Assembly: GCF_000876655.1 (NCBI RefSeq)
Contig: NZ_JYCN01000022.1
Coordinates: 186,001 to 250,000 of the forward strand
Reading direction: 5' to 3'
DNA length: 64,000 nucleotides
DNA from: Arthrobacter sp. SPG23
GTDB taxonomy: Bacteria > Actinomycetota > Actinomycetes > Actinomycetales > Micrococcaceae
The position numbers were made by a program, and so were the translations under genes. The notes beneath the pieces are model-generated. The model saw nothing but the letters and a program-made list of their open reading frames with translations. It was not told where the DNA came from and searched no databases. Numbering within the stretch: position 1 is the stretch's first letter; the number at the start of each line of letters is the position of its first letter. Of the stretch, positions 3,564 to 60,153 are shown in pieces.

Positions 3564-3566
3564 CCA

Positions 3567-3633
3567 CCGGTTGCCCTATCAGTTAGGGCGGTCAAAACAA
3601 GGGTTTGAGCACCGTAAGTGATAGGGCAACCGG
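3567..3633. repeat. 67-nt imperfect palindrome between convergent genes
   Basis: Perfect 15-base arms lie at 3567-3581 and 3619-3633 (ccggttgccctatca and its complement). The intervening 37 bases also pair partly, with a small inner stem tcaaa/tttga. It sits exactly between the stop of the DUF559 gene and the stop of convergent ino1. It may be a bidirectional terminator without a T-tract or a REP/MITE-like element. No second copy was found in this window. Confidence 0.7.
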
Positions 3634-3647
3634 GGTTAAGGAGTCGC

Positions 3648-4733: not shown

Positions 4734-4839
4734 GGAACTCCTTTGAGAACAAACTTCACTGCCCCGCGCGGCTGCACTCTGATGTGCGACGGCGGCTGAT
4801 GGGCACGGCGCCATTGGGCGCCCTTGCATTGTAGCCAAC

Positions 4840-4879
4840 GCCGCCGGGGCCGGAGTTGTTCCCGGTTGGCCCCGGCGGC
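4840..4879 (-). terminator. GC-rich hairpin between the aldo/keto reductase and ino1
   Basis: Perfect 12-base arms (gccgccggggcc at 4840-4851 and its complement at 4868-4879) lie downstream of the aldo/keto reductase stop (4925). There is no T-run, as is common for actinobacterial terminators. Immediately after it, on the minus strand, is TACAAT at 4828-4833, a plausible -10 element for ino1 giving a leader of about 90 bases. Confidence 0.55.
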
Positions 4880-4924
4880 TCTATTACGCCGCTCTGTTAC
4901 GCGGCGGCCACCTTTACGCGCAGG

Positions 4925-5962
<1,038 letters not shown>

Positions 5963-6012
5963 GCCTGCAATCCTGCCAGCTGTGATGCACACAACAGCCA
6001 ACAAATCCGGTG

Positions 6013-6049
6013 TTACGCCGCGGGCTGACACAAACAGCCCGCGGCGTAA
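6013..6049 (-). terminator. Hairpin downstream of treZ
   Basis: Perfect 15-base stem (ttacgccgcgggctg at 6013-6027, complement at 6035-6049) with a 7-base loop, 16 bases past the treZ stop. It has no T-tract. It probably ends the treXYZ transcript before the aldo/keto reductase gene. Confidence 0.65.
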
Positions 6050-6064
6050 GGACAGAGGCTGAAG

Positions 6065-7819: not shown

Positions 7820-10164
7820 GCGTGGTTCTCCAATCCATTCGTGGGTACCAGCAGGGCAACGGGGTAGCTGGCCAGGATGTCCGCAACGGACACCGGCCCG
7901 GGCCCGAAGCTGCTACCGGTGAGCTCATCTGTCATGGCCGCCGGCAGCGCCACCGTGGTGTCCTGCCAGCCGCCGGACTGCTCCAGCCGGCGCGGCAGCC
8001 TGGTGGCCAGCGTGAGGGCTCCAGCAGACTCGCCGGCCCCCCTGCTGAACGCCACCAGGTGCGCCGCCGCCGGGCCCGTGGAAGGGATCACCGTGTAGCC
8101 GGTGAAGAGCTCGGGCCGGTCACGCCGGAGCCTGAGCGCCCGCGAGGTCACCAGCAGCTTGGCGGCGTCATCCTGGTACGACGCCGGACGCACGCCGGAG
8201 TCGAGTTCACCCAGCGCGTTCCGCCGCGCGGCAAAGTCCACAGCACGGCGGTTGTCCGGATCCGTCAGCGAACGGTCCCAGAACTCGGTGCCCTGGTACA
8301 CATCCGGAACGCCCGGCATGGTCAGCTGCACCAGTTTGGCGGACAGCGCGTTTGCCGCGCCGTACGGTTCCAGGAGCGCCACGAAGGCCTCCAGTTCCGC
8401 ACGGACCTCCGGGTCGTCGAACGCGGAGTCGACGGCGGCAGCCAGCTTCTGTTCGAACGCTTCGTTGGGGTCCAGCCAGTCGGTCGAATTTCCGGCCTCG
8501 CGGGCGGCCTTGGTGGCGTACTGCTGGAGCCGCTCCCGGGAGGCAGGCCATGCGCCGGCGATGGCCTGCCACAGAAGGCTTGCCAGCGGACCGTCGGGCA
8601 GCGGTGCAAGTTCCTGCAGTTTGGCCAGGACCTTGTCCCATTCCGCCACGAACTCCGAAATCACGGAGATCCGGGCGCGGGTGTCCTCGCTGCGCTTGGT
8701 GTCATGCGTGCTCAGCGTGGTCATGGACAACGGCAGGTTGGCTTCCCGCCGCGCCATCCGCCGGTGGAACTCGGCCGGGTCGAGGGCGAACTCGGTGGGA
8801 TCGGCGCCCACCTCCGTCAGGGTGCCCAGCCGGGTATAGCGGAAGAAAGCAGTGTCCTCCACGCCCTTGGCCATCACCATGCCGGAGGTCTGCTGGAACC
8901 GCTGTGCCAGCGCCGAGCCGGAATCCAGCAGCAGCGGCTGCAGCACTTCAATGGCCGCAGCGAGGTCCGGGCGGTTCCGGGCCGCGAGGCCGCAGGCTTC
9001 CTTGAGGACGTCCTCGCCATACGGGAGGTAGGTCCGGTACACGGGGAAGGAGGCAATGATCTCGGAGATCGCGTCAGCGGCGTGGCCGCCGTCCACCCCG
9101 GCCCCGTCGAGGTCCGTCCCGGCCGGAACAAGCCGCGCCAGCCTGAGGACCTCGGAGTGCAGGATGCCGTCGGTGATCCGGCGTTTGGTTCCGCGGATCA
9201 TTTCCTCATAGTCTGCGGGTTCTCCGCCGCGGAGCCTGCCGTCGAGCTGGTCCAGGGCTTTCTGCGCCGAGGCGTCGACGAAGAGGCGGTCCACGTCCGC
9301 CAGCGCGTCGTAGCCGGTGGTCCCTTCGCAATCGAAGGAAGCGGGCAGCTCCTCCCCCGGCTCCAGGATCTTCTCGATCAGCAGGTAGCTGCCGCCGGTC
9401 ACTTCGCGGAGCCGCCGGAGGTAGCCCTCCGGGTCGGCCAGCCCGTCCGGGTGGTCGATCCGGAGCCCGTCCGCCAGCCCCTCGCGGAACCAGCGGACCA
9501 CTTCGGCATGGGCTTCGTCGAACACCCGGGGGACTTCCACCCGGACGCCCGCCAGCGTATTCACGGCGAAGAAGCGGCGGTAGTTGAGGTCCGTGTCCGC
9601 GCGGCGCCAGCCCACCAGTTCGTAGTTCTGGCGGGCGTGGACGTCACGGGGGTCATCCCCCTCGGTGAAGCTTCCTTCGGCCAGCGGGAACCGGTGGTCG
9701 TAATAGCGGAGTTCGCCGTCGCGGATTTCCAGCTTGTCCAGGTCGTCGTCGCTCCCCAGCACGGGCAGCCGGACGCGTCCGCCGCCGAAGTCCCAGTCGA
9801 CGTCGAACGCTTCTGCGTAAGGGGACTTCCGGCCTTCCTTCAGCAACGACCACCACCAGGGATTCTGGTACGGCGACGCCACGCCGACATGGTTGGGCAC
9901 AATGTCCACGAGGACGCCCATGCCGGCGGCGCGGGCCGCGCGGGACACCGCTTCGAGGCCCTCGGGGCCGCCGCGGTCCGGGTCCACCGTGGAGGGGTCC
10001 GTGACATCGTAGCCGTGGTCCGACCCCTTTTCCGCCGTCAGGATCGGGGACAGGTAGATCCAGTCCACGCCCAGCGACTTCAGGTAGGGGACCTCGGCGG
10101 CGGCGTCCTGCAGCGTGAAGGACGGGCGGATCTGCAGACGGTACGTGGAGACCGGCGTCCTCAT
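7816..10164 (-). CDS. treY: Malto-oligosyltrehalose synthase
   Basis: GH13 intramolecular transglucosylase of 782 residues. It turns the reducing-end alpha-1,4 bond of maltodextrin into an alpha,alpha-1,1 bond. The N-terminus '[15 protein letters not shown]' and '[16 protein letters not shown]' are diagnostic for TreY. 'VDIVPNHVG' lies at about 86-94, the catalytic nucleophile is D237 ([10 protein letters not shown]) and the acid/base is E264 (LLIEKIL). Its start overlaps the treX stop by 4 bases and its stop overlaps the treZ start by 4 bases, so the three proteins are probably made in fixed proportion. Confidence 0.97.
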
Positions 10165-12416
10165 GAATCCGCCTTGCCCTTCGACCTTGCCCTCGTAGCC
10201 TGGGCGGGCTCGGCGATGGCCGGTGAGGTCAGCGCCGCCGTCTCGCTGGTGGCGGTCTGCGTCAGCGCCGCGAGGGATGCTGCCACCGAGTGGTCCGGCT
10301 CGGTCTCCGGAACACTGTGGGCGCGGAGCACCACGAGGGACTTGGCGTCGACGGCCAGGACACCGCCGGCTTCCACGGGTTCGGTGTCGGCGTTGTGCCC
10401 TGCGGTGTCGATGATGATGTCCCAGGCGGGAGCATACTCGTCGGACGGCAGGGTGAACTTCACTTCGTCGTCATGCGCGTTGAAGTAGAGCACAAAGTTG
10501 ACGTCGGTGATGCGGCGGCCGCGCTCGTCGCGGCCACGGATGCCGTCGCCGTTGAGGAACATGCCCACCGAGCGGCCGAAGCCGCTGTCCCAGTCTTCGG
10601 GCTTCATGGTGGAGCCGTCCACGTCCAGCCATTCGATGTCCGGAAGCCGTTCGCCTTCGCCGCGCAGGACCGGCCTGCCGTCAAAGAAGCGGCTCCGGCG
10701 GAACGTGGGGTGCTTGTGCCTGAGGGCGTTGACGGCCGCGGTGAATTCCACCAGGGGCTGGTCCACGTTGTCCCAGTTGATCCAGGTCAGCTCGGAATCC
10801 TGGCAGTAGCCGTTGTTGTTGCCCTGCTGCGTGCGGCCCATCTCGTCGCCGTGAAGCAGCATGGGCACGCCCTGCGAGAGCAGCAGCGAGGCGATGAAGT
10901 TGCGCTGCTGCCGGGCACGGAGGCCCAGGACCTTGGGGTCGTCGGTGGGGCCCTCAGCGCCGCAGTTCCACGAGCGGTTGTGGGATTCGCCGTCGTTGTT
11001 GTCCTCGCCGTTGGCCTCGTTGTGCTTCTCGTTGTAAGACACCAGGTCTGCCAGGGTGAAGCCGTCATGCGCGGTGACGAAGTTGATCGAGGCGACCGGA
11101 CGGCGGCCGGAGTGCTCGTAGAGGTCGGCGGAGCCGGTGATCCTGGAGGCGAATTCGCCCAGGGTGGCCGGTTCTCCGCGCCAGAAGTCGCGCACGGTGT
11201 CGCGGTATTTTCCGTTCCATTCCGTCCACTGCGGCGGGAAGTTGCCCACCTGGTAGCCGCCGGGGCCCACGTCCCACGGCTCGGCGATCAGCTTGACCTG
11301 GGACACTACCGGGTCCTGCTGGATGAGTTCGAAGAAGGTGGACAGCTTGTCCACGTCGTAGAATTCGCGGGCCAGGGTGGAGGCGAGGTCGAACCGGAAG
11401 CCGTCCACGTGCATCTCCGTCACCCAGTAGCGCAGCGAATCCATCAGGAGCTGCAGGGAGTGGGGGTGCCGGACGTTGAGCGAGTTGCCCGTGCCCGTGT
11501 AGTCCATGTAGTGCTTCTCGTCGCCGTCCATGAGCCGGTAGTAGGCGGGGTTGTCGATGCCCTTGAAGGACAGCGTGGGGCCCAGGTGGTTGCCTTCGGC
11601 GGTGTGGTTGTACACGACGTCGAGGATCACTTCGATGCCGGCCTGGTGCAGTGAACGGACCATGGCCTTGAAGTCCTGGACCTGCTGGCCGGTGTCACCG
11701 GTGGAGCTGTAGGTGTTGTGCGGGGCGAAAAAGCCGATGGTGTTGTAGCCCCAGTAGTTGTTGAGGCCCTTGTCTTCCAGGATGCCGTCGTTGACGAACT
11801 GGTGCACCGGCATCAGTTCGATGGCCGTGACGCCCAGCTTCTGCAGGTGGGAGATGACGGAGGGGTGAGCCACGCCGGCGTAGGTGCCGCGCTGGTCCTC
11901 CGGAACTTCGGGGTGCAGCTGGGTGAGGCCCTTGACGTGGGCCTCGTAGATCACGGACTTGTGGTACGGAATCCTGGGGTTGTGGTCGCCGTCCCAGTCG
12001 AAGAACGGGTTGATCACCACGCCCATCATCATGTGCGGGGCGGAATCCGCGTCATTACGGGAATCGGGATCGCCCATGTTGTAGGAGAACAGCGCGGGGT
12101 CCCAGTCGATCTGGCCGTGCACGGCTTTCGCGTAGGGGTCCAGCAGGAGCTTGTTCGCGTTGAACCGGTTTCCGGATGCGGGATCGTAGGGTCCGTGGAC
12201 CCGGTAGCCGTATTTCTGGCCGGGCTGGATGTGGGGCAGGTAGCAGTGCCACACGTAGCCGTCGACTTCGAGGAGCTCGATCCGGGTCTCCGCGCCCTTA
12301 TCGTCGAAGAGGCACAGTTCCACCTTTTCAGCCCTTTCGCTGAACAGCGCAAAGTTCGTGCCAGTTCCGTTAAAGGTGGCTCCCAGCGGGTATGCCGATC
12401 CGGGCCAGACTTCCAT
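10161..12416 (-). CDS. treX: Glycogen debranching enzyme TreX/GlgX
   Basis: GH13 isoamylase-type protein of 751 residues that hydrolyses alpha-1,6 branches of glycogen to supply linear dextrins to TreY. An N-terminal CBM48-like domain ('[21 protein letters not shown]') comes first. The barrel shows '[12 protein letters not shown]', nucleophile D343 (GFRFDLAS), acid/base E379 ([12 protein letters not shown]) and 'TAHDGFTL'. The C-terminal 50 residues are Ala/Thr-rich and look like a disordered tail. The ATG is preceded by GAGGAG. It is the first gene of the treX-treY-treZ operon. The glgX name is equally valid; treX is chosen from context. Confidence 0.96.
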
Positions 12417-48196: not shown

Positions 48197-49162
48197 TTAA
48201 ATCGGACCATGGTAGCGCACCACCGGCCCATATGCAGCAAATACCCCCGCCGGGGTTGAGACGCCTTCAGCCCGCGAAACGCCGTCCAGGATGGCTTCCG
48301 TCACGACGTCGGCGGCCGCGCTCTGCAGCGCAATGAGGCTGAACTGCCGGGGGACGTCGGTGCGGCTGTGAAGTTCGACGGCGCCGGTTGCCAGCGCGAA
48401 CACGGTGTCACCGTCCGCCAAAGTGTGGGACGGGTTTAGCGCCCGGGCCAGCCCGGCATGGCAGGCAGAGGCGGTCCGTTTGCACTCCACCTTGTTCAGG
48501 ACGGCGTTGGTGGCGACGACCACGAGGGTGGTGTTGAGGGGCGGCTGCTGGGCATCCCGGGTTTCGACGGGCTCAACTACCGACCGAACACCGACCGGCA
48601 GTCCCACTGCGTTGACGATCGCTAGTGCCCCTACAACCACGCCGTTGTCCAAGGTGATGGAGGCCGTGCCCACTCCCCCTTTATACGTCCCCCTGCCGAG
48701 GACGGCTCCGGTGCCGGCCCCCACGTTGCCGCGTTCGACGTCGCGCCCTTCCTCCTGGGCGGCAGCGGCGGCAGTTGCCGCGTAACCCATCTCCTCATCG
48801 GGGCGGGCGGAAAAGTCGCCGCCGCGGCCGAGGTCAAAGATGGCGGCAGCCGGGACGATCGGCACGATTCCGCCGGGCACGGCGAGTCCCCGGCCGTTGT
48901 CCTCGCACCAGCGCTGGGCCCCGCGCGCTGCGACGAGTCCATAGGCGCTGCCGCCGGTGAGCACCACGGCGTCCACCCGCTGCGAGAGCGTTGCCGGGTC
49001 CAGGGCATCCGTTTCGAAGGTGGCCGGGCCGCCGCCGCGGACATCAACGGAACCCACGGTTCCCGGCGGCGGCAGCACCACGGTCACCCCGGTGAGCCAG
49101 CCGCCGTCGGACTTCGCCAGGTGTCCCACCCGGATTCCGATGACATCGGTAATCGCTCCCAT
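48197..49162 (-). CDS. P1-family (DmpA/BapA-like) aminopeptidase
   Basis: About 321 residues from ATG 49162, preceded by GGAG; the frame to 49594 runs into the divergent transporter gene. The N-terminal 'ITDVIGIRVGHL' and 'GVTVVLPPPGTVGSVDVRGGGPATFETDALDP' (read in part) are typical of the P1 superfamily of self-processing hydrolases. 'VVLTGGSAYGLVAARG' is conserved. The self-cleavage site should be before the Thr in 'PPLNTTLVVVATNA' (about residue 234), generating the N-terminal nucleophile; Thr replaces the Ser of DmpA. Family members release N-terminal residues from small peptides or beta-peptides. The substrate is unknown. Confidence 0.9.
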   Translation of the reverse strand: MGAITDVIGIRVGHLAKSDGGWLTGVTVVLPPPGTVGSVDVRGGGPATFETDALDPATLSQRVDAVVLTGGSAYGLVAARGAQRWCEDNGRGLAVPGGIVPIVPAAAIFDLGRGGDFSARPDEEMGYAATAAAAAQEEGRDVERGNVGAGTGAVLGRGTYKGGVGTASITLDNGVVVGALAIVNAVGLPVGVRSVVEPVETRDAQQPPLNTTLVVVATNAVLNKVECKRTASACHAGLARALNPSHTLADGDTVFALATGAVELHSRTDVPRQFSLIALQSAAADVVTEAILDGVSRAEGVSTPAGVFAAYGPVVRYHGPI

Positions 49163-49275
49163 GGCTCCATTGTGCGCCCTCGCCAAACCGAGTGTCCGCT
49201 CCCACGAACTTAGCGACCCGCGGAACCAAGTCCTGCCGTGAAAACAAACGTCATGTAATACTGCAAGCAACACAG

Positions 49276-49298
49276 CGTTAACGGGCAAGGAAGCCTTG
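49276..49298. promoter_or_regulatory. Possible operators in the divergent peptidase/ABC-transporter region
   Basis: Two short symmetric sequences lie in the 256-base gap: cgttaacg (49276-49283) and caagg-aag-ccttg (49286-49298). Sugar ABC operons are commonly controlled by LacI- or GntR-type repressors, but no regulator gene is adjacent. Confidence 0.25.
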
Positions 49299-49418
49299 AC
49301 TAACAATCCTCTGACGAGGGCTTGTGCGGGATTCTGCCCACCAACCATGTGGTGAAGTGAAGCTACCCCCCACATCCATCGGCCTGCCATCCGCGGGCCC
49401 GGAACCGTTAGAGACCGA

Positions 49419-50369
49419 ATGACAAGACAACTGACCGACAGGCCGTCCGCCGTCGCGGAAGCCGGACCGGCCCTTCGGCGCCGGCCCAAATGGTCCGGAA
49501 GGACCCGCCGGGATTTCTTCGTATTTCTGGCCCTCGCACTGCCCAACCTGGTGCTGATCGGGGTCTTCACGTACCTCCCGCTCATCAACAACATCTACTA
49601 CTCCACCCTGGATTGGACGCTGGGATCGGCGTCCGCCACCGTGGTGGGGCTGGACAACTACGTCACGTTCTTCACCAGTTCCGATGCCGCCAAGGTGCTT
49701 GGCACCACGGCCATCTTCACGCTGGTCACCGTTGGCGGCTCCATGGTGCTGGGCCTGCTGATCGCACTCGCGCTGAACTCCAAAGTCCGGGGCACCACCT
49801 TTGCCCGGTCCGCGGTTTTCGCCCCCTACGTGCTCAGCGGCGTCGGAGTGGGCCTGGTCTGGTTGTTCATCTTCGATCCCGGCTACGGCGTCCTGGCCTG
49901 GGTCCTCCGCGGCCTGGGCCAGCAAAGCCCGCAATGGATCAACGATCCCCAGCTCTCGCTGGTCATGGTGATCATCGTCTACGTATGGAAAAACCTGGGC
50001 TACTGCGCGGTGGTGTACCTCGCGGGGCTGCAGTCGCTCCCGCAGGACGTCATGGAGGCCGCCTCACTGGACGGCGCCAACGGGTTCCGGCGCTTCCTGA
50101 GCATGTCCGTGCCGCTGCTCTCCCCCACCACGTTCTTCCTGCTCATCACCACCATGCTCAGCTCGCTGCAGGCGTTTGACCTGATCAGGATCATGACTCC
50201 CCTGGGCAACGGCACCAGCACGCTGATCTACGAGGCCTACCTCCAGGCATTCGGTGCCTTCAACCGGGCCGGCTACTCGGCGTCCATCTCGGTAGTGCTC
50301 TTTGCCATCCTGCTCATCATCACCGTGCTGCAGCTGCGGTTCGTCGAACGGAAGGTGCATTACTCATGA
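49419..50369 (+). CDS. Sugar ABC transporter permease, MalF/UgpA type
   Basis: Protein of 316 residues with six membrane segments starting at about residue 28. The EAA loop that contacts the ATPase reads 'EAASLDGANGFRRFLSMSVPLLSP' in the last third. 'FTYLPLINNIYYSTLDW' and 'FVGLDNYV'-like start ('VVGLDNYVTFF') are family-typical. The first 25 residues are a polar cytoplasmic leader. It overlaps the next permease gene by 4 bases (atga). Together with the binding protein downstream it imports a carbohydrate or glycerol-phosphate-like solute; the substrate cannot be told from sequence. Confidence 0.93.
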   Translation: MTRQLTDRPSAVAEAGPALRRRPKWSGRTRRDFFVFLALALPNLVLIGVFTYLPLINNIYYSTLDWTLGSASATVVGLDNYVTFFTSSDAAKVLGTTAIFTLVTVGGSMVLGLLIALALNSKVRGTTFARSAVFAPYVLSGVGVGLVWLFIFDPGYGVLAWVLRGLGQQSPQWINDPQLSLVMVIIVYVWKNLGYCAVVYLAGLQSLPQDVMEAASLDGANGFRRFLSMSVPLLSPTTFFLLITTMLSSLQAFDLIRIMTPLGNGTSTLIYEAYLQAFGAFNRAGYSASISVVLFAILLIITVLQLRFVERKVHYS

Positions 50370-51220
50370 GCACGCACCGGCCACTGTCCCGCGCCAACAT
50401 TGTCCAGACCATTGCCGGCGGCTACATCCCGCTGATCCTGGCCACCCTGGTGGTGTTCCTTCCGCTGCTCTGGATGATCCTGAGCTCCTTCAAGCAGCCC
50501 GGCGAGATCATCACCATGGACCTGAAGATCGTCCCGGAGAGCCTGACCCTGGAGAACTACAACATCGCCATGACCACGGTGCCGTTCGCGCAGTTCTTCC
50601 TGAACAGCACCATCGTCACGCTGGTGGGCGCAACGGTCAAAGTGCTGCTGGCCATCCTCACCGCCTACGCCCTGGTGTTCGTTCGCTTCCCGTTCAAGAA
50701 CGCCATCTTCGTGCTGATCCTCGTCGCCTTGATGGTTCCGCCGCAGGTGTCCATCCTGCCCAACTACATCCTGATCGCAGGGCTGGGCGGAAAGAACACC
50801 CTCTGGGGCATCATCCTGCCCGGCCTGGGAACCGCCTTCGGCACCTTCCTGCTGCGGCAGCACTTCATGACGCTGCCGGCCTCCATCCTCGAATCCGCAG
50901 AGATCGACGGCGCGGGCCACTGGCGCAGGCTCTGGCGGATCGTGGTCCCGGTGTCCGTCCCCTCGATCGCCACCGTTGCCCTGGTCACCGTGGTCAGCGA
51001 GTGGAACGACTACATCTGGCCGCTCATCATCACGGACCGCCCGGAAACCATGACCCTTCCGGTGGGCCTGACGCTGCTGCAGAACTCCGAAGGCAACGGG
51101 TCCGGCTGGGGCATCCTCATGGCCGGCGCCGTGCTGGTGATCGTCCCCATCCTGGTGGTGTTCGCGGCACTCCAGCGCTACATCGTGGCCGGCCTCACCC
51201 AAGGCAGCGTCACCGGCTAG
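50366..51220 (+). CDS. Sugar ABC transporter permease, MalG/UgpE type
   Basis: Protein of 284 residues and six membrane segments. 'PLLWMILSSFKQPGEIIT' at the N-terminus and the EAA loop 'ESAEIDGAGHWRRLWRIVVPVSVP' are diagnostic of the CUT1 family second permease. 'EWNDYIWPLIITDRPETMTLPVGL' follows. The start overlaps the first permease stop, so the two subunits are translationally coupled and form the heterodimeric channel. No ATP-binding subunit is encoded in the operon, so a shared MsmK-type ATPase elsewhere is likely. Confidence 0.94.
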   Translation: MSTHRPLSRANIVQTIAGGYIPLILATLVVFLPLLWMILSSFKQPGEIITMDLKIVPESLTLENYNIAMTTVPFAQFFLNSTIVTLVGATVKVLLAILTAYALVFVRFPFKNAIFVLILVALMVPPQVSILPNYILIAGLGGKNTLWGIILPGLGTAFGTFLLRQHFMTLPASILESAEIDGAGHWRRLWRIVVPVSVPSIATVALVTVVSEWNDYIWPLIITDRPETMTLPVGLTLLQNSEGNGSGWGILMAGAVLVIVPILVVFAALQRYIVAGLTQGSVTG

Positions 51221-51320
51221 GGGCCGCCTTGTCCGGCGCGCCAGTGCTTTCCCAGCACCACCCGTCATCCAATCCGTACAACGAGTCAGCATGAGCAAAC
51301 CACCTTTGAGAGGATCCACA

Positions 51321-52667
51321 ATGGGCATGAATCTTGACCGCAGGCATTTCCTGGGGCTTGCCGGCGCAGGAGCCGGCGCCGCTGCACTGGCAGCGTGCGG
51401 CGGCCCGTCCACCGGCGGCAACACCCCTGCCAGCGAAGCCGCCGAGATCGACTTCAGCGGCGTCAAGCCGGCCGCGTCCATCGACTTCTGGACCAACCAC
51501 CCGGGCAAATCCCAGGACGTGGAAAAATCCATCATCGCGAAGTTCCACGCCAAGTTCCCCGACATCAAGGTGAACCTGGTGACTGCGGGCGCCAACTACG
51601 AGGAAATCGCCCAGAAGTTCCAGACCTCGCAGGCGGCCAAGGAAGCCCTGCCGGGCGTTGTGGTGCTCTCCGACGTCTGGTGGTTCCGTTACTTCTCCAA
51701 CGGCAACATCATCCCGTTGGACGGCCTCGTCAAGCAGCTGGACATCAAGGTGGACGACTTCCAGAAGTCCCTTGTGGCGGACTACCGGTACGACGACAAG
51801 CAGTGGGCCCTCCCCTACGGCCGGTCCACGCCGCTGTTCTACTACAACAAGGACCACTTCAAGGCGGCCGGGCTCCCGGACCGGGCACCGAAAACCTGGC
51901 AGGAGTTCGCCGAGTGGGCACCGAAGCTGAAGGCCAGCTCGGGCGCGCAGTACGCCTACATCTACCCGGCGCTGGCGGGCTACGCGGGCTGGACCCTGCA
52001 GAACAACCTCTGGGGCTGGGGCGGCAGCTGGTCCAATGAGTGGACCATCAACTGCGACTCGGCCGAATCCGTCGAGGCACTCCAGTGGGCCCAGGACTCC
52101 ATCTACAAGGACGGCTGGGCCGGTGTTTCCTCGAAGGAAGCGGCTGACGACTTCGCGGCCGGGATCACCTCCTCCACCATCTCGTCCACCGGCTCACTGC
52201 TGGGTGTGCTGAAGTCCGCCAAGTTCAACGTGGGCGTGGGCTTCCTGCCGGGCGGCCCCAAGGTGGAAAGCGGCGTGTGCCCCACGGGCGGCGCCGGCCT
52301 GGGCATCCCCAGCGGCGTGAGCAAGGAGGTGCAGCTGGCCGCAGGCACGTTCCTGAAGTTCATGACCGAGCCGGAAAGCACCGCGGAATTCTCTGCGGCA
52401 ACGGGCTACATGCCTACCCGTGTTTCGGCCGACATGACTTCGGTGCTGGCCAAGACGCCGCAGATCAAGACAGCCATGGACCAGCTCTCGGTCACCCGGG
52501 TCCAGGACAACGCCCGCGTGTTCCTGCCGGGCGCAGACCAGGAAATGGCCAAGGCCGCGGCGAAGATCCTCACCCAGCAGGGCGACGTCAAGGCCACCAT
52601 GACCGCACTGAAGTCCACGCTGGAGGGCATCTACACGAAGGACGTCAAGCCCAAGCTCAAGAGCTGA
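51321..52667 (+). CDS. Extracellular solute-binding lipoprotein (CUT1/UgpB-like)
   Basis: About 448 residues from ATG 51321, which has GAGAGGA upstream; the frame to 51291 lacks a ribosome site. The N-terminus carries a twin-arginine-type signal 'DRRHFLGLAGAGAGAAALAAC' ending in a lipobox (LAAC), so it is anchored outside the membrane. The mature part is family 1 binding protein: 'SIDFWTNHPGKSQDVEKSII', 'GVVVLSDVWWFRYF', 'LPYGRSTPLFYYNKDHFKAAGL' (read in part) and 'TGYMPTRVSADMT'. The Trp-rich centre ('NNLWGWGGSW') may stack sugars. It follows the permeases by 100 bases and ends at a strong terminator. Confidence 0.93.
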   Translation: MGMNLDRRHFLGLAGAGAGAAALAACGGPSTGGNTPASEAAEIDFSGVKPAASIDFWTNHPGKSQDVEKSIIAKFHAKFPDIKVNLVTAGANYEEIAQKFQTSQAAKEALPGVVVLSDVWWFRYFSNGNIIPLDGLVKQLDIKVDDFQKSLVADYRYDDKQWALPYGRSTPLFYYNKDHFKAAGLPDRAPKTWQEFAEWAPKLKASSGAQYAYIYPALAGYAGWTLQNNLWGWGGSWSNEWTINCDSAESVEALQWAQDSIYKDGWAGVSSKEAADDFAAGITSSTISSTGSLLGVLKSAKFNVGVGFLPGGPKVESGVCPTGGAGLGIPSGVSKEVQLAAGTFLKFMTEPESTAEFSAATGYMPTRVSADMTSVLAKTPQIKTAMDQLSVTRVQDNARVFLPGADQEMAKAAAKILTQQGDVKATMTALKSTLEGIYTKDVKPKLKS

Positions 52668-52706
52668 CGCTGGCGTTCCGGACGCCCCTTCGGTCCCGCG
52701 ACGCAC

Positions 52707-52750
52707 AAAATCCCTGGGGACACCGGAATTCCGGTGTCGCCAGGGATTTT
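52707..52750. terminator. Strong hairpin after the ABC transporter operon
   Basis: aaaatccctgg (52707-52717) pairs with ccagggatttt (52740-52750), and an inner palindrome gacaccggaattccggtgtc extends the stem. Short T and A tracts flank it. It lies between the convergent stops of the binding-protein gene and map and can serve both. Confidence 0.85.
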
Positions 52751-52776
52751 CTGTGTCGCCAGCGTTATTCGCGAGC

Positions 52777-53604
52777 CTACGGGATCGGGACCGGGACCAC
52801 GCCCAGCGGCGCAAGCCGCGCCGCACCGCCGTCGGGCGCCGAGAGAACCCAGATGCCCTTTTCGTGGACGGCCACCGAGTGCTCCCACTGGCACGAGCGC
52901 TTGCCGTCCGTGGTGACCACGGTCCAGTCGTCCGCGAGAACGGCGGTCTCGATGCTGCCGCGGACCAGCATGGGTTCAATGGCCAGGCACAGTCCGGGGC
53001 GGATCTTGGGTCCGCGGTGGCTGGTCCGGTAGTTCAGCACGTCCGGCGCCATGTGCATTTCGGAGCCGATGCCGTGGCCCACGTAGTCTTCCAGGATGCC
53101 CAGCGGCTTGCCCGGGACGGAGGAGACGTAGTCGTCCACGGCGCAGCCGATGTCCCCCACGAACTTTCCGGTGGCCAGGGCCGCGATGCCGCGCCACATG
53201 GCTTCCTCGGTGACTTCGGACAACCGGACGTCCTCGGGATCGGGCGTCCCCACGATCACGGTGCGGGCGGAGTCGGAGTGCCAGCCGTCCACGATCGCGC
53301 CGCCGTCGATCGAGATGATGTCGCCGTCCTTCAGCACACGGCTACCCGGGATCCCGTGGACCACTTCCTCGTTGACGGAGGTGCAGATGGTGGCCGGGAA
53401 CCCGTGGTAGCCGCGGAAGTTGGACTTGGCGCCTGCCTCGTCCAGGACCGCAGCGAATACCGCGTCCAGCTGCGCCGTGGTGGCACCGGGAACGGCCGCC
53501 GCCGCCGCCGCGTCCAGGGCTCGGCTCAGGACCAGGCCGGCCTCGTGCATGATCCGCATTTGGGCGTTGGTCTTGTATTCGATCCGGGGCTGTCCGAATG
53601 CCAT
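52777..53604 (-). CDS. map: Methionine aminopeptidase, type I
   Basis: Removes N-terminal Met from new proteins. From ATG 53604 it has 275 residues and begins 'MAFGQPRIEYKTNAQMRIMHEAG'-like (read in part). Metal and active-site residues are visible: H83 (EEVVHGIPG), D100 (SIDGGAIVDG), D111 (WHSDSART), His in 'GHGIGSEMH', and Glu in 'AIEPMLV' and 'QWEHSVAV'. The longer frame to 53751 is rejected. It lies 37 bases after the oleD-like gene on the same strand. Normally map follows adk directly in this operon; here a 5.7 kb cluster lies between them. Confidence 0.95.
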   Translation of the reverse strand: MAFGQPRIEYKTNAQMRIMHEAGLVLSRALDAAAAAAVPGATTAQLDAVFAAVLDEAGAKSNFRGYHGFPATICTSVNEEVVHGIPGSRVLKDGDIISIDGGAIVDGWHSDSARTVIVGTPDPEDVRLSEVTEEAMWRGIAALATGKFVGDIGCAVDDYVSSVPGKPLGILEDYVGHGIGSEMHMAPDVLNYRTSHRGPKIRPGLCLAIEPMLVRGSIETAVLADDWTVVTTDGKRSCQWEHSVAVHEKGIWVLSAPDGGAARLAPLGVVPVPIP

Positions 53605-53641: not shown

Positions 53642-54553
53642 TCATCCCAGGTCTCTGATCCATTCTCCCGCACCCGCGAAGCTGCTCGGGACAGGGACAA
53701 CGCCAAGCTCCTCCCGCAGGCGTCGCGTGGAGTAGGTGCGCTCGAAGCCAAGCTGGCTCACGGCGTAGCGCGTGAGCCTCGGCGGCTTGCGTGTCACGCC
53801 TGCCATCGCTTCGAGGGACGCCGCCAGCGTCATTGCCGCACGCATCGGGATGAAGCCGAGTTCGACGTCGGAACGGCCGGTGTTGTCCAGTACCTCCCGA
53901 AGGACCTGGCCGAGTGCCACCGGCCGGTGGTCGGCAACGTTGACGGGGCCGGTCGCCTCCGAGGTGCAGGCGGCGAGCGCCGCCCGGGCCAGGTTGCCTA
54001 CGGACGTCAGCTGGTGCCGTACATCCGGTCCCCCGACGCTCAGCAGCCGGTTATGGTTCACATTGCTGATGAGACGGGGCAGAAGCGTCCGGTCCCCCGG
54101 GCCGTACACCCCGTGCGGCCGGAGGATCAGCGCATTGCCGTGCCGCGCAGCCGCGGCCTCCGCCATGGCTTTCGACCCGGAGTAGGCGTTCAGGTACCGT
54201 CCCGCGACCGGGTCCTCCGGCCGGCCCACGCACGGCTGCCACCACGGGTAGACGCTGGAGCTTGAAATGTGGACCAGCCGCGCTTGCGGGAAGGTCGCCG
54301 CAACGGCCTCAGTCCCGTGCACGTTGACTCGGTGGAACAGCTGCGCCGGACCCCAGTCCGCCACGTGCGCGCCGGCATGCACGACGGCGTCGATCACCGG
54401 CGGCGATGACAGTTCCCCGGCGCCGAGGTCCCACACCCGCTGGCCCGGGAGCTGGCGCCGGCCGTACCGGATCACTTCCCAGCCGCGCTCCTCCGCAGCC
54501 GCAGCAACAGCTCCGCCGACGAAACCGCTGGCCCCGGTCACGGCGATCCTCAT
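53642..54553 (-). CDS. OleD-like NAD(P)-dependent 3-beta-HSD/epimerase-family reductase
   Basis: Extended short-chain dehydrogenase of 303 residues. The cofactor motif TGASGFVGG is at about 6-14. The catalytic Ser stretch is 'HISSSSVYPW' (97-100), with Y124 and K128 (YSGSKAMAE). 'HAGAHVADWGPAQLFHRVNVHGTEAV' (read in part) and 'LRPHGVYGPGDRTLLPRL' resemble OleD, which reduces the 2-alkyl-3-ketoacid made by OleA to a beta-hydroxy acid. The start overlaps the ligase stop by 4 bases (atga). OleD is favoured by the OleA- and OleC-like neighbours; a generic epimerase is the alternative. Confidence 0.85.
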   Translation of the reverse strand: MRIAVTGASGFVGGAVAAAAEERGWEVIRYGRRQLPGQRVWDLGAGELSSPPVIDAVVHAGAHVADWGPAQLFHRVNVHGTEAVAATFPQARLVHISSSSVYPWWQPCVGRPEDPVAGRYLNAYSGSKAMAEAAAARHGNALILRPHGVYGPGDRTLLPRLISNVNHNRLLSVGGPDVRHQLTSVGNLARAALAACTSEATGPVNVADHRPVALGQVLREVLDNTGRSDVELGFIPMRAAMTLAASLEAMAGVTRKPPRLTRYAVSQLGFERTYSTRRLREELGVVPVPSSFAGAGEWIRDLG

Positions 54554-56298
54554 GGCGTCCCTTCCGGCTGCCGGTCTTGTGACCGCAGGTCTTCGAAAAG
54601 AGCCCTCAGGGCAATGCGGTCGGGTTTGCGGTGCCGGCCGGAAACCGGCAGCCGGGGCAGGATTTCGATCCGGTCCGGGCGCGCCGATTCGTCGATGAGT
54701 TTCGGCAGCTGCCGGCGCAGCGCCTGCTGGAGCGCCTCATGGTTACGTCCGTGCTGCGGTTCGACGGCGAGCCACACCGCTTCGTCGCCGATCCCGTCCG
54801 GAACGCCGACCATCACGGCCTGGGCCACGCCGTCGATGCCGGCGATGACGGGCTCGAACAGGCCGGGGTAAATGTTGGTCTTGCCGCGGATGATCATGTC
54901 CTTCTTGCGCCCCAGCAGGACCAGCCGGCCGTTGTCCACCCTCGCGAGGTCTCCTGTGGCGTGCTCGTCCATGGCGTCCTCGCCAAGGTAGCCCAGGCAC
55001 ATGTTCGGCCCGGAGACCATCAGCTCGTGGTCGTCCGCCACCCGGATGCGGACGCCCGGCAGCGGTCCGCCGAGGTAATCGCCCTCGCCGGAGCCGTCCG
55101 GGGTCCGGAATTCCGCGGTGCGTCCGGAAGCGAAGTCCAGCTTCTCCTGCCCGTCCGCGATCGCGATGGGCAGCACTTCGGTCATCCCGTAGATGCAGTG
55201 GAAGCGCACTCCGGGCAGGAGCCGGGCAGCACGCTCCAGGAACGGGGCCAGCACGGGGGCGGCGCCCAGCATCACCGTGGTCAGGGTGCGCGGCCACAGC
55301 AGCTGTCCTGATTCCACGGCGTCAAGGATCGGCGCCAGCTGCGAGGGTACAAGGAACACGTGGGTTGCCGCCTGCTGCCGGGGCGAGGACCCCAGCTCGG
55401 CCGCGAACCGCAGCGGATCGATTGCAGCGGACAAGCCGTACGCCGGCATGGTCCAGTGTGCGCCGGCGATCAGGGCGGGCAGGCCCATCATCAGCTGCTC
55501 CGAGTGGATGCGATCGCCGGCGGCGAATGTGCAGCGTGCGCTCAACTGGCCAAAGCCGGCTGCCAGGGTCCCGCGGCTGTGCACCACGCCTTTGGGATGC
55601 CCGGTGGTGCCGGAGGTGAAGATGATGACCGCCTCCTGGTCCGGTGCTGCCTCGACGGCCGGCAACCCGTCCGGCCGGCCGCCGTCGTCCTCGGCGCCGC
55701 CGTCGTGGCCGCCGTCGTCCTCGATGCCACCGGGAGTAGCGCTGCGGAACAGGGCACGGATGTTGGTGGACTTCAGCGGGACCCCCGGAAGCCACGGACC
55801 GGAGTGGAAGTGCCGGACCTTCATGGCGCCATAGTCCGGAAGGAGCAGGCCGCGCCGCCGCGCAAGCGGCCGCAGCGGGCCGCGCGCGCTGAGCGCATAA
55901 AGCAGCGACTCGGAGGCCGCCCACCGCGGGGATGCCAACGCCCTCCTGTTCCGGAACAATGCGGGGCCCACCCCGGGATCGATGAACACGATGGCCCCGC
56001 CTGCCCGGACGGCAGCCAGTGCGAGCGTGAATGCCGCCGGCCCCGGCCGCACCGAAAACAACAGCCGCTCCCCTGGACCGAAGCCCTCACGCCGCAGGCC
56101 CGCAGCAGTGGATTCAATCCCGGCAGCGAGGTCCCGGTAGCTGATGGTTTTTCCCGGCTTGGCGCCGCGCCTGCCACCACGTCTGCCGGGTGCCGTGATG
56201 GCCGGATGGTCCGGGTATTTCGCGGCAGTCTCGTACACGGCGGCAATGAGGTCGTCCGGGAGCTTGGCGGGCAGGTCAGCGGGCAGGTCAGTCGGCAC
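54550..56298 (-). CDS. OleC-like AMP-forming ligase / beta-lactone synthetase family
   Basis: Adenylate-forming enzyme of 582 residues from GTG 56298. The P-loop FTSGTTGHPKG is at 227-237, YGMTE at 370-374 followed by 'VLPIAIADGQ', TGD at 448-450, GRKKD at 463-467, and a C-terminal Lys in 'GRHRKPDR' (about 558). The 'TEVLPIA' pattern after the A5 motif resembles OleC, which cyclises beta-hydroxy acids to beta-lactones. A Gly/Asp-rich insert at about 191-215, encoded by imperfect gccgccgtcgtc repeats, precedes the P-loop. The first 14 residues repeat DLPA. It overlaps the P450 gene by 11 bases and the OleD-like gene by 4. An ordinary acyl-CoA ligase role cannot be excluded. Confidence 0.85.
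   Translation of the reverse strand: MPTDLPADLPAKLPDDLIAAVYETAAKYPDHPAITAPGRRGGRRGAKPGKTISYRDLAAGIESTAAGLRREGFGPGERLLFSVRPGPAAFTLALAAVRAGGAIVFIDPGVGPALFRNRRALASPRWAASESLLYALSARGPLRPLARRRGLLLPDYGAMKVRHFHSGPWLPGVPLKSTNIRALFRSATPGGIEDDGGHDGGAEDDGGRPDGLPAVEAAPDQEAVIIFTSGTTGHPKGVVHSRGTLAAGFGQLSARCTFAAGDRIHSEQLMMGLPALIAGAHWTMPAYGLSAAIDPLRFAAELGSSPRQQAATHVFLVPSQLAPILDAVESGQLLWPRTLTTVMLGAAPVLAPFLERAARLLPGVRFHCIYGMTEVLPIAIADGQEKLDFASGRTAEFRTPDGSGEGDYLGGPLPGVRIRVADDHELMVSGPNMCLGYLGEDAMDEHATGDLARVDNGRLVLLGRKKDMIIRGKTNIYPGLFEPVIAGIDGVAQAVMVGVPDGIGDEAVWLAVEPQHGRNHEALQQALRRQLPKLIDESARPDRIEILPRLPVSGRHRKPDRIALRALFEDLRSQDRQPEGTP
55678..55723. repeat. Short direct repeats in the OleC-like gene
   Basis: The 16-mer gccgccgtcgtcctcg occurs at 55678-55693 and again at 55708-55723, with a third partial copy between. 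It encodes the EDDGG/HDGG/EDDGG insert before the P-loop. The pattern suggests slippage-driven expansion. Confidence 0.7.
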
Positions 56299-57490
56299 GG
56301 GTCAGCTCCAGTGACTTGTAGTGCGGGATGAGCACGTTCCGGCTGACGGCGCGGGAGCGGATGCGCCACGGGTCCCGGCTGTGCTCGTCCAGCAGCAAAG
56401 CGAGGGCGCAGTTGATTTCGGCCATCGCCAGCGGCATGCCGATGCAGAAGTGGGCGCCCGCCCCAAACCACAACTGCCGGGCCGCGGCCGGGATGGGCGT
56501 CCCCGGGTCAAAGCCGCCCAGGCTCTTGACCGCGTGCACGGTGGACAACAGGATGCGGTCCCCCGGCCCGATCCGCACGCCGCCGAGCCGGCCGGCCGTT
56601 GTCGCCTCGCGCAGCATCATCGGCGACGGCGCGGTGTACCGCAGGCCCTCGTTGACGGCGTCCGGTAGGCCACTGCGGTCAGCTGCCAGCGCGGGCAACA
56701 TGCCGCCGTCGAACAGCATCGCGGCGAGCCGCGGAACATAGGACACCAGGGTTTCGGTTCCGGCAATCACAAAGGCGCTGACAATCCCCACCGCTTCGTC
56801 CTCGCTGAGTCCCAGGACCCTCAGGCGGCCCGGAAAGGTGGACGGGTCGTCGCCGCGGTACGCGTTGCGGACGGGTCCGGCCAGGATTTCGACGGCGGCC
56901 TTCGCCTCTGAGATCTGCGGCAGCGTCAGGCGTGGCCGCCCCAACCTCACCAGGGAAGTGATGGAGGTGCCCAGGTTGAAGAGTTCGGTGTCCGGCAGGC
57001 GTCCGGGCGCATCGTCCGGGACGCCCAGCAGCCTGCTAACCACTCCCCCTGACAGCTCTTTCACGAGTCCGACGAACTCCACCGAGCCGCCGTTGTCCAG
57101 CCCCGCGGCCAGGCGTTCGCGCAGCCGATCGCCCGCCGGGGCCACGATCGCCTGAACGGCGCGCGGACTGAACAGGCCGTTGAGGCGGCGCCGCAAGTCC
57201 AAGTGCTCCTCCCCGTGCATGTTCAGCAGGGCACGCGGACCCACCACGGGAGTCCACAGTGCACCGGAAGCCCTGGCGCCGGACTTTGAATAACCGGCAT
57301 CCATCAGGACTTCCCGGACCAGCGAGGCCTCACTGACCAGCACCCCCAGGCCGGGCACCCGCACAACGGGCCGTAGCTTCCCCAGTCCGCGGATCAGCGG
57401 ATAGGCCACAGGATGGGCTGCGGTGTGCAGCCGCCGCTCCCACGCGGCCAGGTCTCCCCTGGCTGCCGCCTTGGCCGTGGTTGCGCTCAC
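56288..57490 (-). CDS. Cytochrome P450
   Basis: Protein of 400 residues, normal bacterial length. The I-helix motif AGTET is at 243-247, the K-helix ExxR is E281-R284 (EGLR), and the heme loop 'FGAGAHFCIGMPLA' places the axial thiolate at C349. 'HLDLRRRLNGLFSPRAV' is the usual C-helix region. P450s of this class hydroxylate lipids or polyketides using ferredoxin electrons; no ferredoxin or reductase gene is next to it. It overlaps the GT2 gene by 4 bases and the ligase gene by 11, so it belongs to the OleA-to-OleD cluster, where it probably oxidises the product. The subfamily cannot be assigned here. Confidence 0.93.
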   Translation of the reverse strand: MSATTAKAAARGDLAAWERRLHTAAHPVAYPLIRGLGKLRPVVRVPGLGVLVSEASLVREVLMDAGYSKSGARASGALWTPVVGPRALLNMHGEEHLDLRRRLNGLFSPRAVQAIVAPAGDRLRERLAAGLDNGGSVEFVGLVKELSGGVVSRLLGVPDDAPGRLPDTELFNLGTSITSLVRLGRPRLTLPQISEAKAAVEILAGPVRNAYRGDDPSTFPGRLRVLGLSEDEAVGIVSAFVIAGTETLVSYVPRLAAMLFDGGMLPALAADRSGLPDAVNEGLRYTAPSPMMLREATTAGRLGGVRIGPGDRILLSTVHAVKSLGGFDPGTPIPAAARQLWFGAGAHFCIGMPLAMAEINCALALLLDEHSRDPWRIRSRAVSRNVLIPHYKSLELTRAD

Positions 57491-58314
57491 CGGATGTCCA
57501 CGTGGTCGGGGCGGAACCGGTGGTCGGCGTACCAGGCGAGCGTGTTGGGCAGGCCCCAGGCCTTGACCCTGCGGGAGGATCCGAACACCACCACGTTGCG
57601 CCGGAGGGCGTACGACCGCGTCAGCTTGCGGACCTGGTTGGAGAGCGCACGGTCCTCATGCAGCTCCTCGATGCTGGTCCGGGGAAAACCGCCTGCCCGC
57701 AGGTACAGCTCCGCGGTGATGGCCATGTTGCAGCCGGGCAGCATCTGGTAGGGCCCCAGGTAGCCCTCCCCCCTGTTGCCGGGGCGGATGCGGCCAAAGA
57801 ACGACGCAACCTCCACGGCCAGCAGCATCAGCCAGCGGCTGCCCCGGCCCAGGCCTTCATCCAGCCGCGGATTTAGCTGCCCGGCGATCATTTCCAGGCC
57901 GTCGTCGAACGCTTCCATGATGCGCCGGGTCCAGTCCGCGGCCGGGAGGCAGTCCGCGTCAGTGCGGGCCAACCAGCGGGCACCGTTCAGCGCGCCGAAG
58001 CGCATGCCGGTATCGGCAGCGGCGCCGGTCCCCTTGTGGGCCTCGTGCACCAGCCGGATGTCCATTGCGGGGTGCATCCGGGCGTAATCCGCCACGATTG
58101 CCGTGGTGGCATCCGTGGACCCGTTGTCCACCACCACGAGCGTGAAGTCTTGGTGCAGCTGCCCAGCCAGGGCCTGCAGCGATTGGCGGATCAGCTTCTC
58201 CTCGTTGAGTGCCGGCATCGCGACACACAGCGCCCGCACCGGCGGTTCGGTACCGGGCACCGGCGGTTCGGTGCCGGGCACCGGCGGTTCGGTGCCAGAG
58301 GGCGGCCGCGTCAC
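57487..58314 (-). CDS. Glycosyltransferase family 2
   Basis: About 275 residues from GTG 58314, which overlaps the OleA-like stop (gtga). GT-A fold motifs are 'AMPALNEEKLI' (about 32-42), 'VVDNGSTDATT' (61-71), the metal-binding 'RTDADCLP' (117-124) and a later 'EELHEDRALS'. The first 26 residues are three copies of GTEPPV(P/R), encoded by a 21-base tandem repeat. There is no strong membrane segment, so it probably acts in the cytosol, using a nucleotide sugar. In this cluster it might glycosylate the lipid product or a polyprenyl carrier. The longer frame to 58389 is less likely. Confidence 0.88.
   Translation of the reverse strand: MTRPPSGTEPPVPGTEPPVPGTEPPVRALCVAMPALNEEKLIRQSLQALAGQLHQDFTLVVVDNGSTDATTAIVADYARMHPAMDIRLVHEAHKGTGAAADTGMRFGALNGARWLARTDADCLPAADWTRRIMEAFDDGLEMIAGQLNPRLDEGLGRGSRWLMLLAVEVASFFGRIRPGNRGEGYLGPYQMLPGCNMAITAELYLRAGGFPRTSIEELHEDRALSNQVRKLTRSYALRRNVVVFGSSRRVKAWGLPNTLAWYADHRFRPDHVDIR
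58239..58300. repeat. 21-base tandem repeat at the GT2 N-terminus
   Basis: Three near-identical units start at 58239, 58260 and 58281 (ccggcggttcggtnccgggca). They encode the GTEPPVP repeats of the glycosyltransferase. The number of units could vary between strains. Confidence 0.85.
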
Positions 58315-59345
58315 AGCCGCACCACGGCGATGCCCAGGCTGACGCCGCCGGCAAGCCCCACCAGCGCCACCAGGTCGCCGGGCCCGCACCGGCCCAAGTC
58401 CTGCGCCACCTTAAGCTGCAGCGGCAGGCTTACCGAGGCCATATTGCCGTAGTCCTCGACTGTCCTCACGAGCTTGTCCTCCGGCACTCCGGCTCCGCGC
58501 GCAAAGATGTCCCGGTACGGGGCACTGACCTGGTGGACGCAGACGACGGCGAAGTCCGCCCACGCCAGGCCAAGCCGCTGCAGGGTCTCATCCAGGATGC
58601 CCCTCCCCAGGTCCAGGAACGCGTCCTTGAGTTTTTCGCCGTCCATGCTGAAATACGTCGCCTCGGGATCCCGCGGGGCTACGGACCCGCCGGCGGCCAG
58701 TGTTCCCACGGCCCAGTGGCTGCTCTTGGCGGTAAAGCCCATTCCCAGCACCCGGGACCCTGCGTCATCGCGGGGGTCTGCCGGTTCCAGCAGCAAGGCA
58801 CATCCGGCGTCGCTCATGGTGTACCCCGGAAAGGACGCCGCGAAGGTTTCCTGGTCCGGAACGGACCACCGTACGGCGCGGGAAGGCGACTCCCCGCTGA
58901 CCAGGAGCACGCGCCGGTAGCGGCCGGCCCCGATCAGGGCGTCGGCCACCTCCAGGCCGTTAAGAATGCTGTTGCAGGCGTTCTTGATGTCCATCACCGG
59001 GCAGGCCATACCCAGTTTCGCGGCCACCATGTGGCCGGTGGCCGGCTCCACCATGTCCTGGCTCGCCGAAGCAAACAGTAGGAGGTCGACGTCGGCGGGC
59101 TGGAGTCCGCGGTCCGCCAGCAGTTTCGCGGCGGCTACAGCCGCAAGGTCCGAGGCCTGCTCGGTCCCGGCCATCACCGACCGCGTCCGGATTCCCGTCA
59201 GCCGGCCGATCAGGCCCCTCGGCACACGGAAACCGGGGCTGGCGGCAGCGAGCTGCTGCTCCATCTGCCCGGTGCCCAGCCGGCCCGGCGGCACATAGAC
59301 TTCGAGGCCGGCGATCCTCGCCGCCCCCGTCAGGGTCTGGTTCAT
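58311..59345 (-). CDS. OleA-like thiolase / KAS III-family condensing enzyme
   Basis: About 344 residues from ATG 59345 with GGGAGA upstream; the frame to 59537 adds an Arg-rich unlikely extension. The thiolase-fold catalytic set is C124 ('IKNACNSILNG'), H271 ('VCVHQVSAPYR') and N301 ('EDYGNMASVSLPLQ'), and an acidic E100 ('QDMVEPATG') lies where OleA carries its Glu. OleA joins two fatty acyl-CoAs head to head; FabH-type enzymes use acyl-CoA plus malonyl-ACP. Neighbouring OleC- and OleD-like genes favour the OleA role. It is the first gene of a coupled run ending at the OleD-like gene. Confidence 0.87.
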   Translation of the reverse strand: MNQTLTGAARIAGLEVYVPPGRLGTGQMEQQLAAASPGFRVPRGLIGRLTGIRTRSVMAGTEQASDLAAVAAAKLLADRGLQPADVDLLLFASASQDMVEPATGHMVAAKLGMACPVMDIKNACNSILNGLEVADALIGAGRYRRVLLVSGESPSRAVRWSVPDQETFAASFPGYTMSDAGCALLLEPADPRDDAGSRVLGMGFTAKSSHWAVGTLAAGGSVAPRDPEATYFSMDGEKLKDAFLDLGRGILDETLQRLGLAWADFAVVCVHQVSAPYRDIFARGAGVPEDKLVRTVEDYGNMASVSLPLQLKVAQDLGRCGPGDLVALVGLAGGVSLGIAVVRL

Positions 59346-59478
59346 GCAGTATCTCCCCACAGACAATGCGTCCGGTGATGCCCGGCTCCCGGTCCTCGTC
59401 GCTTGACCGCTCCGCCGGCGTCGCCGCCCGAAACGGCGCCTCCACCAACTACGCATCAAGCAACGACGCGCCACAACA

Positions 59479-59524
59479 GGAAGGGCGCGTCCCGTACTCG
59501 ATGGTACGGGACGCGCCCTTCCTG
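59479..59524. terminator. 20-bp perfect hairpin between adk and the ole-like cluster
   Basis: Arms 59479-59498 and 59505-59524 are perfectly complementary with a 6-base loop (aggaagggcgcg...cgcgcccttcct). It lies 50 bases past the adk stop and 134 bases before the OleA-like start, with no T-tract. It probably ends the spc-secY-adk transcript, so the ole-like cluster should have its own promoter in 59346-59478. Confidence 0.8.
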
Positions 59525-59574
59525 GCACTGAAGGCAAGCCGGGTTCGGCGGCCTCGGTGTGCGGTAGCCCTAAA

Positions 59575-60153
59575 TCAGGCTGCCTGCGCTGCCTTGATGG
59601 CCTGCATCACGCGGTCGGTGACCTCGTCGATGCCGCCGATGCCGTCAACCTGGGTCAGGATGCCGCGCTCGGCGTACTTGGCCACAACGGCCTCGGTCTG
59701 CTCGTGGTACAGGTCCAGCCGGTGGCGGATGACGGCTTCGTTGTCGTCGCTGCGGCCGGTTTCCTTGGCACGGCCCAAGAGGCGGTGCACCAGTTCCTCG
59801 TCATCGGCAGTCAGCTGCAGGACGACGTCCAGCTTCTGCTCACCGATGGCGAGGATCTCATCGAGGTAGTCCACCTGCGCGGTGGTGCGCGGGTAACCGT
59901 CCAGGAGGAAGCCGTTTTCGACGTCGTCCTCGCCCAGGCGGTCACGCACCATCTTGTTGGTGACGCTGTCCGGCACGAAATCGCCGGCATCCATGTACTT
60001 CTTGGCCTCGACGCCCAGCGGCGTCTCACCCTTGACGTTGGCGCGGAAGATATCGCCGGTGGAGATCGCAACGACGCCGAGGCGCTCGGAGATCCGATCC
60101 GCCTGCGTTCCCTTGCCTGAACCCGGAGGTCCGATAATCAGCATTCTCGTCAT
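59575..60153 (-). CDS. adk: Adenylate kinase (short form)
   Basis: Protein of 192 residues that interconverts ATP+AMP and 2 ADP. P-loop GPPGSGKGTQ at 8-17, 'AISTGDIFRANV' and 'GFLLDGYPRTTAQV' with the conserved Asp/Arg are visible. The LID between 'RLLGRAKETGR' and 'SDDNEAVIRHRL' is short, without the zinc-finger cysteines of longer forms, as is usual in Actinobacteria. The start overlaps the secY stop (atga). In related genomes map follows next; here it does not. Confidence 0.97.
   Translation of the reverse strand: MTRMLIIGPPGSGKGTQADRISERLGVVAISTGDIFRANVKGETPLGVEAKKYMDAGDFVPDSVTNKMVRDRLGEDDVENGFLLDGYPRTTAQVDYLDEILAIGEQKLDVVLQLTADDEELVHRLLGRAKETGRSDDNEAVIRHRLDLYHEQTEAVVAKYAERGILTQVDGIGGIDEVTDRVMQAIKAAQAA

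Follow-up and report, generated by a model that had tools for sequence, protein, structure and literature searches.

The window analysed here is a 64,000-nucleotide stretch of Arthrobacter sp. SPG23 DNA (contig NZ_JYCN01000022.1, positions 186,001-250,000 of the forward strand). At 53642-59345, on the minus strand, it contains a cassette of five open reading frames that encode an OleA-like condensing enzyme, a GT2 glycosyltransferase, a cytochrome P450, an AMP-forming ligase and an OleD-like reductase. All five are present with intact motifs, and Pfam and NCBIfam searches of the window proteins support the five broad families. Together they fill the space from adk to map.

59575..60153 (-): adk, the upstream flank of the insertion site
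59478..59525 (-): perfect hairpin with a 21-bp stem and a 6-nucleotide loop, between adk and the condensing-enzyme gene
58311..59345 (-): OleA-like thiolase-fold condensing enzyme, 344 residues; ATG start with GGGGAG before it; C124/H271/N301 and Glu100-Pro101
57487..58314 (-): GT2 glycosyltransferase, 275 residues; GTG start at 58314, 4-base overlap with the OleA-like stop; Glycos_transf_2 match, TDAD motif
56288..57490 (-): cytochrome P450, 400 residues; GTG start, 4-base overlap with the GT2 gene; heme Cys349, ExxR from 281, AGTET I-helix motif from 243
54550..56298 (-): AMP-forming ligase in the OleC position, its sequence not diagnosable as OleC; GTG start, 11-base overlap with the P450 gene
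53642..54553 (-): OleD-like NAD(P)H-dependent reductase of the extended short-chain dehydrogenase/reductase type, 303 residues; ATG start, 4-base overlap with the ligase gene; GASGFVGG and YxxxK
52777..53604 (-): map (methionine aminopeptidase), the downstream flank of the insertion site; ATG start at 53604

The starts, the 4-11-base overlaps between consecutive genes, the C124/H271/N301 residues and the C349 heme ligand confirm the gene layout given in a preliminary description of this DNA. Glu100-Pro101 of the condensing enzyme is a feature beyond the motifs listed there. The hairpin at 59478-59525 is probably the terminator of the secY-adk operon. A consensus promoter/terminator scan returned no promoter, and the same scan did not list this perfect hairpin.

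Conservation and insertion site

Searching named genomes with aligned cassette OleA sequences yielded 354 relatives, and we inspected the neighbourhood of the best 80. These all belong to Actinomycetota and come from many actinobacterial families. In 76 of these 80 loci the same gene order holds on a single strand (OleA, GT2, P450, ligase, OleD), and because this arrangement recurs so often it is far beyond chance. The exceptions are two short records truncated within or close to the cassette (L052 and L091), one OleA with only a reversed, distant P450 (L056) and one locus with its ligase match on the opposite strand (L083). No other gene of comparable conservation was found in 26 representative loci, a second P450 excepted. 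This second P450 is divergent (~33-36% identical to the cassette P450) and is located ~1.2-1.5 kb upstream of oleA in many loci outside Micrococcaceae (for example L057, L061, L069 and L085), usually in reverse orientation and in Streptomyces on the same strand.

A close OleA is found in 3 of 397 genomes of a phylum-wide draw, the window's own included, and the cassette P450 in 33 of the 198 genomes of the window's genus. The cassette also occurs in Catellatospora and Hamadaea, members of the same family as Actinoplanes. Among 30 adk loci examined, adk adjoins map in 27 and the cassette lies between them in three; in 24 further carriers, secY and adk lie upstream of the P450 at the spacing expected. 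On a secY-adk tree of 84 genomes, nine changes are needed for the cassette label, and the cassette has therefore been gained or lost repeatedly. In the near relative G220 the site is empty, yet the same hairpin sequence is kept after adk, which suggests that the cassette was lost there. The hairpin core GTCCCGTAC after adk is common to the window and related genomes (L017, L018, L019 and L142), one empty site among them, while two other empty sites have the unrelated hairpin CCTCCCGG. The window's genome carries five adenylate kinase (adk) homologs, 59-100% identical (G000 C15:245578, C7:311457, C9:73006, C19:158436 and C36:25183), and several genus members likewise carry three to five.

No OleB or OleBC was found in the window's genome with a full OleBC protein query from a genus member and an OleC model search, extending to the whole genome an absence that the preliminary description had reported. 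The OleBC query gave only weak matches (26-40% identity), nearly all to its ligase half; the sole match to the hydrolase half covers 98 residues at 30% identity. We scored canonical oleBC across the 198 genus genomes by an OleC-model match at E < 1e-60, which was present in 110. The cassette and canonical oleBC rarely co-occur: both are present in 5 genomes, the cassette alone in 28, oleBC alone in 105 and neither in 60 (Fisher p = 4e-7, uncorrected for shared ancestry). This anti-association is suggestive only, because of the missing ancestry correction and because the window's own subclade is without oleBC even in its two non-carriers of the cassette.

Condensing enzyme, reductase and ligase

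The Cys-His-Asn triad of the condensing enzyme is common to FabH too and is not diagnostic by itself. In a nine-sequence alignment, C124, H271 and N301 are invariant, as is Glu100-Pro101. This pair aligns with Glu117-Pro of OleA; the Glu column is fixed by structure 5vxh, which has Asp at residue 117 in the same column. Glu occupies it in 17/17 cassette OleA proteins, 9/9 canonical OleA proteins and 0/10 FabH proteins, and the complete Glu-Pro signature likewise separates the 17 cassette proteins, all of which have it, from the 10 FabH proteins, none of which does. In the survey of Robinson et al. (2020, mBio; PMC7064751), nearly all OleA proteins have Glu117 followed by proline, a signature described there as the hallmark of OleA, and the mechanism is stated to be unique to this enzyme. 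The signature supports head-to-head condensation as the predicted activity of the cassette enzyme.

The preliminary description had proposed placing the enzyme against OleA and FabH. In a tree the cassette proteins make up a separate clade next to both, grouping with neither; the branching order of the three is not fixed by this tree because its sole outgroup sits on a very long branch. We read the enzyme as OleA-type by mechanism but of a separate lineage, overall apparently no closer to OleA than to FabH. A FabH identity, which the tree alone would allow, was not adopted because of the Glu-Pro signature. The other two ACP_syn_III_C matches in the window's genome are FabH (C11) and, by sequence, a type III polyketide synthase-like protein (C10).

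The reductase has NF042422 OleD as its best NCBIfam match, in line with its earlier description as OleD-like. Its score of 104.6 bits lies below the cut-off of 580, as does that of canonical Micrococcaceae OleD at 276.

The ligase had also been described as having OleC-like motifs. Its sequence as a whole does not support membership in OleC. The window protein scores 112.5 bits to the OleC model NF045786 (cut-off 900), below its 135.6 bits to the generic ligase model PRK06187. Canonical Micrococcaceae OleBC/OleC proteins reach ~300-316 bits to the OleC model versus 142-147 to the generic one. Cassette ligases score 61-105 bits against a canonical OleC profile and 79-155 against an acyl-coenzyme A (acyl-CoA) ligase profile, and for the Saccharopolyspora cassette ligase the OleC model is not among the best 25 model matches. 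YGMTExLP[VI] and a C-terminal KxDR motif are common to the cassette ligase and canonical OleC; KxDR is also found in adenylation domains of nonribosomal peptide synthetases (NRPS). The canonical OleC sequences compared have an altered A8 segment, GRL.HV....TPV..E, a form that the cassette ligases do not have. The family model, the grouping with canonical OleC and the A8 segment all fail to place the cassette ligase in OleC, and on its sequence this identity is doubtful. Since the match to canonical OleC is no better than that to ordinary acyl-CoA ligases, only the gene context points to a beta-lactone. The ligase could still close a lactone, a reaction that its sequence does not show. The solved-structure matches of the P450 and GT2 give no clue to substrate, and GT2 is without a close solved relative.

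Three genomes from a different genus of the family have a sister variant (L020:3688-10461; L021:3977-10784; L022, about 3372-10168). Directly upstream of OleA-P450-OleD lie an F390-synthetase-related adenylating enzyme (TIGR02304) and an ATP-grasp/GNAT fusion, and GT2 and the OleC-like ligase were not matched at the locus. Gene layout was compared in all three loci, and protein families were tested in L020 and partly in L021. The variant suggests that OleA, P450 and OleD form a core in which carboxylate activation is exchangeable, and this makes an obligatory beta-lactone less likely. In the L022 copy the ATP-grasp and OleD genes appear to be disrupted.

Proposed pathway and alternatives

While the preliminary description knew of no pathway with this exact set, the same set and the same product proposal have been published for Actinoplanes atraurantiacus. 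Its cluster contains OleA, a glycosyltransferase, OleC, a P450 and OleD, oleB is absent genome-wide, and a hydroxylated, glycosylated beta-lactone was proposed (PMC7064751). The A. atraurantiacus OleA is active on p-nitrophenyl hexanoate in vivo (PMC7064751). The window has the same five protein kinds and no oleB, a match made at the level of broad protein kind from the published description. The published text gives the order OleA, glycosyltransferase, OleC, P450, OleD, whereas the window has OleA, GT2, P450, ligase, OleD. Identity to Xanthomonas campestris OleA is 29% for the A. atraurantiacus protein and 28% for the window protein. From the gene content, these similar identities and the occurrence in Catellatospora and Hamadaea, we infer that the two clusters are orthologous. 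The cassette is genuine, strongly conserved and internally consistent, and it adds one more member to a published type whose function already has a published hypothesis. New here are its distribution, the fixed adk-map site in Arthrobacter relatives, the rare co-occurrence with the olefin pathway and the failed OleC test.

The canonical Micrococcaceae olefin cluster, oleA-oleBC-oleD, shares the OleA/OleD-type first two steps and Glu117-Pro with the cassette, which differs from it in having no OleB, in the added GT2 and P450 and in its locus. Identity to the oleBC-linked proteins is about 25-27% for the cassette OleA-like protein and about 25-29% for the ligase. To our knowledge, the combination of P450 and glycosyltransferase is not part of the nocardiolactone or lipstatin pathways. 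Set beside the cassette by description, these pathways likewise use OleA/C/D-type enzymes without OleB, and oleACD clusters without oleB are found in the beta-lactone producers Streptomyces toxytricini and Nocardia brasiliensis (PMC7064751).

Gene content and order, catalytic motifs, their conservation and the lack of oleB in the genome are direct observations. The cassette is probably an actinobacterial lipid-biosynthesis operon of the A. atraurantiacus kind, in which head-to-head acyl joining would be followed by reduction, oxidation, activation and glycosylation. The OleA-like enzyme would condense two fatty acyl-CoAs head to head to give a 2-alkyl-3-ketoacid, with transacylation at Cys124 and Glu100 as the base, and the OleD-like reductase would convert this to a 2-alkyl-3-hydroxy acid. 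The P450 may oxidise one alkyl chain and GT2 may attach a sugar. The AMP-forming ligase would adenylate the carboxylate and then either close a beta-lactone or transfer the acyl group to a different acceptor. As OleB is missing, no decarboxylation to an olefin would follow. We infer the condensation and reduction chemistry from known enzymes. The order of steps, the oxidation site, the sugar and the choice of a lactone over a thioester, ester or amide are guesses. A 2-alkyl-3-hydroxy acid core is well supported, and a beta-lactone is only one option for its further fate. Of the interpretation in the preliminary description, head-to-head condensation, the OleD-like reductase and the absence of oleB are supported.

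Several points weigh against this proposal. The window condensing enzyme has profile scores of 115.7 to canonical OleA and 120.2 to FabH, marginally nearer FabH over the whole sequence. Cassette ligases keep an A8 segment like that of CoA ligases, GRKKDM.IRG..N.YPGL.E or a close variant of it. Purified Actinoplanes OleA was unreactive with every acyl-CoA tested, although little protein was available (PMC7064751). The product of the gene set is unreported in the literature searched, although the genes are frequent among cultured members of Arthrobacter, Paenarthrobacter, Actinomadura, Streptomyces and Catellatospora.

The alternatives differ mainly in the fate of the carboxylate. It is quite possible, if somewhat short of an even chance, that the same pathway ends specifically in a hydroxylated, glycosylated beta-lactone, with the ligase as a true beta-lactone synthetase. 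The absence of oleB, the precedent of the beta-lactone producers and the YGMTExLP[VI] and KxDR motifs agree with this, but the ligase fails the OleC family models and keeps the GRKKDM.IRG..N.YP motif, and the presence of KxDR in NRPS adenylation domains reduces the value of that motif. The CoA-ligase-type A8 motif would instead suit an ordinary acyl-CoA or acyl-AMP ligase that attaches the carboxylate of an oxidised, glycosylated, mycolate-like 2-alkyl-3-hydroxy acid as a thioester, ester or amide. The F390-synthetase-related enzyme and ATP-grasp/GNAT fusion of the sister variant also fit carboxylate conjugation. We regard this outcome as rather unlikely: the five-gene version encodes no acceptor-transfer enzyme, and where oleACD occurs without oleB, the known precedent is a beta-lactone. 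The slightly higher FabH profile score, together with FabH proteins as the top solved structures matching the condensing enzyme, could indicate a FabH-like priming synthase that uses malonyl-acyl carrier protein in a fatty-acid or polyketide-type route. This is very improbable, as the Glu117-Pro equivalent is fixed across the cassette clade and lacking in FabH, the cassette has no acyl carrier protein, and an OleD-like reductase is linked to it.

A broader proposition is that the cassette makes no beta-lactone and is instead a route, widespread in actinobacteria, to mycolate-like 2-alkyl-3-hydroxy lipids that are oxidised and glycosylated. Its carboxylate-activating module would be exchangeable (OleC-like ligase in most genera, F390-synthetase-like ligase with ATP-grasp/GNAT in one), and it would replace the olefin pathway in many Arthrobacter. 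We consider this unlikely. The negative OleC test cautions against naming a beta-lactone as the product solely on the strength of gene content. As the five genes form a single tight operon at a constant position, and some close relatives have the site empty, the product of the proposed lipid pathway can be sought by comparative lipidomics and clean deletion.

Neighbouring features

Downstream of the cassette, a 31-bp inverted repeat at 52698-52759 of the window lies between map and a convergent solute-binding-protein gene, and is possibly a bidirectional terminator. The binding-protein gene adjoins map in many relatives and is missing there in others. Between map and rpsM, at 48197-52667, plus-strand ABC transporter genes (by their appearance permeases and a binding protein) and a P1-type peptidase break the ribosomal-protein gene order.

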